Shown here piece after piece: positions 9,125 to 10,272 of a DNA stretch of 20,699 nt. This DNA is from a virus. Where the stretch lies: the IMG/VR virus record IMGVR_UViG_3300025671_000681, positions 1 to 20,699 of that record, one strand, 5' to 3'. The stretch's first letter is position 1. The number at the start of each line of letters is the position of its first letter. The notes beneath the pieces are model-generated. The model saw nothing but the letters and a program-made list of their open reading frames with translations, did not search any database and had not been told where the DNA came from. The position numbers were made by a program, and so were the translations under genes.

Positions 9125-9502
9125 ATGGAAAATGGTTTATTAGTTCACAAACATCTTATCGTTCGGGCAGAAATAAATAATCCTCCGGTAGATGAAAATT
9201 ATTTAAAGAGTTGGTTAAACAACTTTATTATGGATATAAATATGAAAGTATTTATGGGTCCATATGTTAAATATTGTACTATGCCTGGTAATAGAGGTAT
9301 TACCGCTGTTGCAATTATTGAAACATCACATATTGCAATGCATGTATGGGATGAAGTTAAACCTGCATTAATGCAATTTGATGTATATAGTTGTGGTGAG
9401 TTTGATCACGAACAAATTTGTAAAAAAATACAAAACGATTTTAATACATCTAAAATTGAATATAAGTACTTAAATCGCGAAACTGGGCTAGTTGACCTTT
9501 AA
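9125..9502 (+). CDS. speD: S-adenosylmethionine decarboxylase-type pyruvoyl enzyme (SpeD-like)
   Basis: This 125-residue protein resembles the proenzyme of prokaryotic AdoMet decarboxylase, which cleaves itself to form a pyruvoyl group and makes the aminopropyl donor for spermidine. Visible hallmarks are GNRGIT (55-60), TSHIAMHVW (67-75) and FDVYSCG (85-91). Ser68 is the expected pyruvoyl residue, His73 the processing residue and Cys90 the catalytic acid. The usual ESH at the cleavage site is TSH here, with Glu two residues before the Ser. SpeD-like genes occur in cyanophages and other marine phages, and some viral SpeD relatives have been shown to decarboxylate ornithine or arginine, so the substrate is not certain. 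No spermidine synthase gene is in the window. It follows the endolysin by 9 bases and closes the late operon. Confidence 0.78.
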   Translation: MENGLLVHKHLIVRAEINNPPVDENYLKSWLNNFIMDINMKVFMGPYVKYCTMPGNRGITAVAIIETSHIAMHVWDEVKPALMQFDVYSCGEFDHEQICKKIQNDFNTSKIEYKYLNRETGLVDL

Positions 9503-9541
9503 AAAGTCTTCCTGAGAGCCTCATATTTTAACGAAACGACC

Positions 9542-9570
9542 TTGACATGACCCTAGGTAACCCCTATATA
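9542..9570 (+). promoter_or_regulatory. Sigma70 promoter of hsp20
   Basis: Consensus TTGACA (9542-9547), a 17-base spacer and TATATA (9565-9570), in the 131-base gap upstream of hsp20. A start near 9577 would give a leader of about 57 bases that begins almost exactly at the first leader hairpin. This is one of the best-formed promoters in the window and implies reading by the host RNA polymerase. Confidence 0.7.
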
Positions 9571-9578
9571 TTACGCAG

Positions 9579-9600
9579 GTGCAGCAATTGGGCTGGCCAC
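9579..9600 (+). promoter_or_regulatory. First hairpin of the hsp20 leader RNA
   Basis: Bases 9579-9585 can pair with 9592-9600 (GTG with CAC, then CAGC with GCTG across a two-base bulge), leaving a six-base loop. It sits immediately 5' of the Shine-Dalgarno hairpin and is noticeably more GC-rich than its surroundings. A stable upstream hairpin beside the thermosensing one is the usual layout of ROSE leaders. Hand-folded only. Confidence 0.4.
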
Positions 9601-9632
9601 TAGACTTTGCTTAACATTAACAAGGAGGTTTA
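9601..9632 (+). promoter_or_regulatory. ROSE-like RNA thermometer over the hsp20 Shine-Dalgarno
   Basis: Bases 9601-9612 can pair with 9622-9632 in an 11-bp helix (three of the pairs are G-U) around a nine-base loop. The helix covers the whole AGGAGG site (9623-9628). The 5' arm carries UUGCU (9607-9611) opposite AGGA, with one unpaired G at 9609. That is the signature of ROSE elements, the thermometers known upstream of small heat shock genes of alphaproteobacteria and others, which melt as temperature rises and free the ribosome site. Position, motif and gene function all agree. Melting behaviour is inferred. Confidence 0.65.
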
Positions 9633-9633
9633 T

Positions 9634-10056
9634 ATGACAGGTTTAGATTTAATTAATAAATTCCAAAAAGATCTTTGGGATAATTCCAATAGAATGTTCG
9701 GTGATTCTTTTGATTCTATCTTTGATAGTTTATCAAAAGTACAATCATTCCCATTTTACAATGTGGTAAAATATGGAAAAGGACAATATGGAATTGAACT
9801 AGGTCTTGCTGGTTTCAACAAAAAGAATGTTAAAGTTGAATATAAAGACGGTGTATTATCTGTTTCTGGTCAAGTAGATGACAAAGAAAAAGAATACATT
9901 GAAAAAGGTTTAGCATTCAGAAAATTCTACAAACAATTTCAATTAAGAAATGATGTAGTTGTTGATGATGCTACAATGGAAGATGGTGTATTGACAGTTA
10001 AATTAGGTGTTAATGAACCAGAAGAAATTAAAGCTCAAGAAATAAAAATCAAATAA
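9634..10056 (+). CDS. hsp20: Small heat shock protein, Hsp20/alpha-crystallin family
   Basis: This 140-residue ATP-independent holdase chaperone would bind partly unfolded proteins in the cytoplasm and keep them refoldable. The N-terminal arm (1-38) includes DSFDSIFDSL. The alpha-crystallin domain starts at PFYNVVKYGKGQYGIELGLAGF (40-61), continues through NVKVEYKDGVLSVSGQ (65-80), the Hsp20-type EYIEKGLAFRKFYKQFQL (87-104) and MEDGVLTVKL (115-124), and ends in a short tail without an obvious I-x-I motif. The ATG at 9634 is chosen because AGGAGG lies five bases before it; an in-frame ATG at 9607 would fall inside the leader structure. Hsp20 genes are common in T4-like cyanophages and other marine phages and are thought to help virion assembly. 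It is a single-gene unit with its own promoter, thermometer-like leader and terminator. Confidence 0.9.
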   Translation: MTGLDLINKFQKDLWDNSNRMFGDSFDSIFDSLSKVQSFPFYNVVKYGKGQYGIELGLAGFNKKNVKVEYKDGVLSVSGQVDDKEKEYIEKGLAFRKFYKQFQLRNDVVVDDATMEDGVLTVKLGVNEPEEIKAQEIKIK

Positions 10057-10272
10057 TTATTGTGGGGCTTCGGCCCCATAATTCTGACAAATAAAACCAA
10101 ACCAATCTCCAATACCATTTTTCATTACCCAACGGTTTTCAGGATTATCTAAATAAGTAGCAACTTTTTCACGAAGAATGTTTCCATAGTCTAAACATTC
10201 CATAACATTATTAAAATAAATATCTAAACTATATAAATGATATAATCCTTCTTTATATATAATTAAATCCAT
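10057..10272 (-). CDS. Small protein of unknown function downstream of the SNF2 helicase
   Basis: This 71-residue, mildly acidic protein is rich in Tyr, Asn, Asp and Leu and has no membrane segment or metal-binding motif. Its start overlaps the end of the helicase gene by 10 bases, so the two are probably translated from one minus-strand message. The last seven codons or so (GAEAPQ and stop) are encoded by the shared terminator hairpin, so its C-terminus is constrained by the RNA structure. I do not recognise a family. An accessory to the helicase is the simplest reading of the context. Confidence 0.6.
   Translation of the reverse strand: MDLIIYKEGLYHLYSLDIYFNNVMECLDYGNILREKVATYLDNPENRWVMKNGIGDWFGFICQNYGAEAPQ
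10059..10082. terminator. Bidirectional terminator between hsp20 and the minus-strand helicase unit
   Basis: A ten-pair stem (10059-10068 with 10073-10082, one G-U pair) closes a TTCG tetraloop, with GGGGC/GCCCC at the top. It starts two bases after the hsp20 stop. On the minus strand it is followed by a T-rich stretch (AATAATTATTTGATTTTT), on the plus strand by a weaker one. The two transcription units converge here, and the last codons of the minus-strand gene lie inside the stem. Confidence 0.8.

Follow-up and report, generated by a model that had tools for sequence, protein, structure and literature searches.

The locus considered here raises the question of whether a marine phage controls its small heat shock gene through an RNA that senses temperature. 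The window, by which we mean the whole 20,699-nucleotide stretch that was analysed, is a 20.7 kb virus contig from a marine phage. ROSE thermometers were previously known from bacteria, and the original prediction was that the leader of the hsp20 gene in this phage is a thermometer of the same type. We consider it probable that the leader at 9578-9633, with its two hairpins, acts as a short RNA thermometer of ROSE-like type and restrains translation of hsp20 until warming, the temperature response itself being inferred. A conserved thermometer makes the regulation of phage hsp20 directly testable, and the element would link temperature to the infection of the most abundant bacteria of the ocean.

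The gene hsp20 belongs to the core genes of T4-like cyanophages (PMC3037559); no description of a trigger for it in these phages was found in the literature. In papers from 2023-2024, the tally of phage RNA thermometers stands at only two or three, with no ROSE element among them (PMC10586365, PMC11182007). The remark accompanying the original prediction, that no phage ROSE element had been described, agrees with our own search, in which none was found in the open-access literature (subscription papers and preprints were outside its scope).

The hsp20 locus

Besides Hsp20, the window encodes a peptidase M15, an S-adenosylmethionine decarboxylase, an SNF2-type helicase, a primase, a UvrD-type helicase and a family A DNA polymerase. 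The polymerase is 81% identical to that of phage 023Pt_psg01 and 55% identical to that of pelagiphage HTVC027P; because of these identities, it is likely, although not proven, that the phage infects a SAR11-type host. The features of the locus are collected in Table 1. No other gene lies between the promoter of hsp20 and the GC-rich hairpin that follows it. This hairpin, which was not picked up as a terminator in a scan by the T-run rule, is a probable terminator between convergent genes, and hsp20 is therefore regarded as a one-gene unit. On its upstream side hsp20 adjoins speD (9125-9502), the gene for S-adenosylmethionine decarboxylase; in some relatives (e.g. L019) the end of speD is overlapped by the -35 element of the hsp20 promoter. 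In Synechococcus phage S-T4 (L088, MH412654.1), the annotated hsp20 start lies downstream of the likely true ATG, which is at position 720 behind a ROSE-like leader.

Table 1. Features of the hsp20 locus, in positions of the window.
Feature	Position	Strand	Evidence
Promoter	9541..9570	+	SAR11 matrix rank 2; CTTG(A/T) in 47/51 clade members; likeness to SAR11 dnaK L722
Hairpin I, bulged G9581 (Y-[G]-C / G-G module), near predicted mRNA 5' end	9578..9598	+	Covariation; 241/264 leaders
Hairpin II, thermosensor candidate	9601..9632	+	Fold, covariation, R1 model, motif count
UUGCU anti-Shine-Dalgarno (ROSE motif)	9607..9611	+	Sequence; 52/52 unique clade leaders
Shine-Dalgarno AAGGAGG, wholly within hairpin II	9622..9628	+	Sequence
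hsp20, 140 aa small heat shock protein	9634..10056	+	PF00011 E 2.6e-15
GC-rich hairpin GUGGGGC-UUCG-GCCCCAU 3' of hsp20	10058..10081 (approx.)	+	Read off sequence

Structure of the leader

The helix that was proposed to bury the Shine-Dalgarno (SD) sequence, formed by 9601-9612 and 9622-9632 with G9609 bulged, is present in the sequence as claimed. In this hairpin II, 9601-9608 and 9610-9612 pair with 9622-9632 around a loop at 9613-9621, the anti-SD motif opposing 9623-9626. A second hairpin had been placed upstream at 9579-9600; it exists, but not in that register, since compensatory changes give 9578-9598, with the pairing GG-U-[G]-CAGC/GCUG-G-CC. The predicted stability of the helix in the window (-4.1 kcal/mol, z -1.0) is not unusual, nor is the result of a second folding-energy test (z -0.3). 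With z near 0 to -1, single-sequence folding energy was rejected as proof of the element. The search with the Rfam ROSE models (ROSE, ROSE_2 and ROSE_3) by which the assignment was to be checked gave no match in the window. As the folding energy is ordinary and the window has no Rfam ROSE match, the claim cannot be judged from one sequence alone.

The heptamer AGGUUUA occurs twice in the window, at the SD (9626-9632) and in codons 2-4 (9639-9645), so that the anti-SD arm is able to pair with either copy. This may be a bistable switch or chance.

Conservation and covariation in the window clade

Related hsp20 loci, 80 in number, were taken from IMG/VR, and 44 distinct leaders were aligned (alignment A1). 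The two-hairpin leader containing UUGCU with a bulged G is found in all 52 unique leaders of the window clade. In A1, standard pairs fill 89.1% of the predicted pair cells; sliding the arms lowers this to 34-60%. The covariation score of 0.183 compares with 0.02-0.08 for slid arms (maximum 0.076). Changes that are compensatory on both sides occupy 50 cells in the clade, against 21.5 after shuffling. Compensatory changes in related phage hsp20 leaders, the lack of which would have refuted the original prediction, are seen in both hairpins. In hairpin I, both partners have changed in 17 sequences at pair columns 8-17 and in 19 at 9-16, pairs being swapped among C-G, G-C and A-U. In hairpin II, the UUGCUU/AAGGA core is constant and the lower stem varies with its pairing mostly retained; the core pairs being near-constant inside the clade, covariation in this hairpin comes from flanking pairs and from changes across clades.

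Re-pairing of the arms with only 12 haplotypes gave 1159/20000 ungapped and 53/20000 with one bulge, which amounts to weak to moderate support, and cross-clade evidence was therefore sought. A DNA search for the nearest phage found no close relative of the window hsp20 leader. Judged from the aligned leaders, the element is clearly beyond chance by its conservation, not by its folding energy.

Distribution among phages and SAR11 bacteria

With very few exceptions, the same element is present in the leaders of HTVC115P, HTVC103P, Mosig, HTVC008M, Melnitz-3, C48C1, several cyanophages and 240 further contigs. The hairpin II core, U(U/C)GCU with a G bulged against the SD, is retained in 261 of the 264 hsp20 leaders compared from phages and SAR11, which fall into five diverged groups. 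As background, the motif precedes 9 of 611 other SD-preceded ORFs, two of which are hsp20, leaving 7 of about 609 (approximately 1%). The anti-SD reads UUGCU in the window clade and UCGCU in cyanophages and HTVC103P-like phages; the base opposite the second G of the SD is a pyrimidine throughout, U or C depending on the clade, and the neighbouring pair is C-G, U-G or, together with AGGAU in the HTVC103P-like phages, A-U. A hairpin I bulged in the same way (Y-[G]-C/GG) occurs in 241 of the 264 leaders, where about four would be expected from shuffles. The bulge module is common to hairpin I and the thermosensor hairpin, which suggests a common structural or protein-binding role.

A covariance model built solely from A1 (R1) matches the window at 9578-9636 with 59 bits. 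It also matches 35 of 58 distant phage loci at E<=1, all at the start of hsp20, with no off-target match. Over 118 SAR11 genomes it gave 29 matches at E<=0.01, one per genome, situated just 5' of the genome's own hsp20 (G059 ends at the contig edge), and the motif is present in every one of the 52 distinct SAR11 leaders examined (L574-L634). Rfam does not detect these SAR11 hsp20 leaders, and no description of them as thermometers was found in the open-access literature. The element is general among the sampled aquatic phage hsp20 genes and SAR11 hosts, and is not peculiar to the window phage. In a tree of Hsp20 proteins, resting on few columns, the window clade has a long stem (2.3) and its placement relative to SAR11 Hsp20 is unresolved; direct acquisition from SAR11 is thus neither shown nor excluded. 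As far as the tree resolves, the window Hsp20 does not appear to be a recent copy of SAR11 Hsp20.

Promoters

The leader had been said to start at a consensus-like promoter, and TTGACA (9542-9547) is indeed followed, after a 17-nt spacer, by TATATA (9565-9570). In an alternative register, CTTGAC (9541-9546) is combined with CTATAT, the boxes starting at 9541 and 9564. The site fits the SAR11 RpoH (sigma32) pattern CTTG(A)-N17-C(C)ATAT/CTATAT and, read as CTTGAC...CCCTATAT, resembles SAR11 heat-shock promoters; the promoter of SAR11 dnaK in L722, CTTGTAGAATCGGATTTAACCCCTATAT, may be compared with CTTGACATGACCCTAGGTAACCCCTATAT in the window. CTTGAA-N17-CCATATA is conserved before nearly all of the 52 distinct SAR11 hsp20 leaders, and with a matrix made from 52 SAR11 hsp20 promoters the window site ranks second, at 11.4 bits compared with mostly 15-24 in the hosts. 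In the window clade, CTTG(A/T)...TATAT stands ahead of the leader in 47 of 51 members. The window promoter thus resembles an RpoH (sigma32) promoter and would also be acceptable to sigma70; that RpoH uses it is an inference.

Other lineages have other promoters. The sigma70 form is found in 24 of 34 HTVC103P-like phages and the RpoH-like form in none. T4-like phages have a late promoter of the TATAAATA type (49/56 Mosig-like, 31/49 cyanophage and 53/54 dnaK), and about half of the 49 Mosig-like cases also carry a CTTG-type site. As similar leaders lie behind differing promoters, it can be argued that the RNA itself is under selection.

Relation to known thermometers

The window meets the criteria for a ROSE-like element, namely the 5' UTR of a small heat shock gene, the anti-SD motif, a bulged anti-SD G and two hairpins (criterion 2-4). 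The ROSE-type identity originally proposed is upheld, as ROSE-like, by the motif, the bulged G, the two hairpins, position, covariation and homology to host leaders. In relatives, ROSE_3 gave matches below its threshold of 43 with both hairpins aligned: Melnitz-3 at 34.1 bits (E 0.0017), MED4-213 at 29.2 and C48C1 at 26.8. Since motif and architecture fit and the Rfam threshold is unmet, we call the element ROSE-like and not a member of Rfam ROSE. Assignment to the fourU class was rejected, because the strand opposite AGGA, CUUUGCUU, contains no run of more than three U.

Pseudomonas ibpA leaders are proven thermometers behind sigma32 promoters, in which hairpin II melts whereas hairpin I stays folded (PMC3669281). 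In common with these leaders and Rfam ROSE_3 (RF02523), the phage leader fits two hairpins into a UTR of about 60 nt on a small heat shock gene, sets U(U/C)GCU opposite the SD with one G left bulged, and has a G-bulged hairpin I (as in the ROSE_3 consensus) and a sigma32-type promoter; it differs in belonging to a phage gene, in its A+U-rich hairpin II, in the sequence of hairpin I and in scoring below the Rfam thresholds. The E. coli ibpA ROSE (Rfam ROSE_2, RF01832) shares the anti-SD motif, the bulge and the gene family, but its leader is longer and is not matched by R1. SAR11 (Pelagibacterales) hsp20 leaders have the same two hairpins, bulges, spacing and CTTG-type promoter, and differ in that the gene is cellular and its Hsp20 protein diverged. 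ROSE-G (PMC12857270) likewise has a bulged G against the SD, but it consists of CUGCU with G opposite G before ABC transporter genes, whereas the window has the U(U/C)GCU type. The known phage thermometers include lambda cIII, which heat switches off, and SPbeta blyA, of the fourU type (PMC10586365). These too are phage mRNA leaders responsive to temperature, as is inferred for the window leader, but they are not ROSE elements and do not control a chaperone.

Inferred temperature response and alternative readings

In the mechanism that we favour, the SD would be paired in the cold with CUUUGCUU in hairpin II, the bulged G and G-U pairs would hold this helix close to its melting point, and warming would open it and allow ribosomes to start on hsp20; hairpin I may serve as a stable helper at the 5' end. 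Given the likeness to host heat-shock (RpoH) promoters, it is proposed that warming or protein stress in an infected SAR11-like cell would increase both transcription and translation at once. Thermal melting, like any benefit to the phage, is inferred. With Vienna, SD opening in the UTR plus AUG was predicted to rise from 0.03 to 0.24 between 10 and 42 C; when 24 nt of coding sequence were included, a rival helix (9600-9607/9639-9646) was preferred and the SD stayed open whatever the temperature. In the same program, almost no temperature response was obtained for the E. coli ibpA element, a proven thermometer. As this positive control fails, Vienna melting is not decisive either way, and it was rejected as proof of a thermometer.

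E. coli IbpA binds and represses its own ROSE 5' UTR, for which Arg93 is required (PMC10474464). The main role of the leader might likewise be to bind its own product: surplus Hsp20 would shut off translation, its release during protein aggregation would open the leader, and melting would be secondary or additional. The equivalent of Arg93 is present in 16/16 Hsp20s of the window clade and in 97 of the 98 Hsp20s from phages and SAR11 whose sequence spans this position, there is an aromatic residue at position 34 (alignment to E. coli IbpA), and both the hairpin I module and the nearly constant UUGCUUAA exceed the needs of plain pairing. Of the cationic cluster of IbpA, the window Hsp20 keeps Arg93 and has Lys for Arg97 and Gln for Lys98; against such feedback, Lys98, a requirement in E. 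coli, is Gln throughout the window clade and mostly Ser or Thr in SAR11. Furthermore, IbpA-type feedback has, to our knowledge, never been demonstrated beyond gammaproteobacteria. We consider autorepression unlikely as the main function; it is in any case compatible with a thermometer and no substitute for one.

That the leader is merely structured, hairpin I guarding the 5' end of the mRNA and hairpin II fixing a low, temperature-independent level of translation, would accord with the weak or competing predicted folds and with hairpin I lying at the predicted 5' end. It seems to us rather improbable, as it explains neither the retention of the bulged G and U(U/C)GCU across the five groups nor the tie to hsp20 and dnaK (the 111 ORFs linked to the pattern in a scan of IMG/VR comprise 100 Hsp20, 7 DnaK and others). 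The shared leader and promoter type of SAR11 hsp20 genes could also mean that the leader is a passive relic, brought in from a SAR11 host along with hsp20 and useless to the phage. We give this very little credence: the compensatory changes within the phage clade, the long divergence of Hsp20 and the persistence of the leader in phages with quite different promoters all point to continuing selection. A thermometer thus remains the preferred reading.

dnaK leaders in freshwater phages

The core also precedes dnaK in 54/54 distinct leaders from freshwater phage contigs, and in 48 of these a second copy lies just 3' of dnaK, the next gene being hsp20 where inspected. In a review, ROSE is associated with small heat shock genes (PMC4166951), beyond which a ROSE-like leader on a phage Hsp70 gene extends; a search of the open-access literature found no Hsp70 gene under ROSE control. 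The motif is absent from the three SAR11 dnaK leaders inspected, and Rfam scans of the freshwater dnaK loci, as of the SAR11 loci, gave no ROSE match. The freshwater phage dnaK genes are accompanied by genes for ribonucleotide reductase, endolysin and ClpS. A dnaK-hsp20-clpS cluster is seen in contigs L346, L406, L430, L432, L438, L445, L447 and L636-L715, with dnaK starting at 1501 in most of the last series.

We incline, if only slightly, to the view that aquatic phages collectively operate a heat-shock response encoded in their own genomes, with ROSE-like control of hsp20 in the SAR11, cyanobacterial and methylophage viruses and, in freshwater phages, of dnaK as well as hsp20. Each lineage would have swapped in its own promoter and kept the RNA, and the window clade, by stacking a host RpoH-type promoter on the thermometer, would read host heat shock at two levels.

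The ROSE core pattern was also observed at L345:5833-5852, before a 412-aa ORF (VANIDLTSLNPVLKELYDDQ...) that is neither Hsp20 nor DnaK; it lacks an obvious hairpin I, and either is a chance occurrence or marks another controlled gene.
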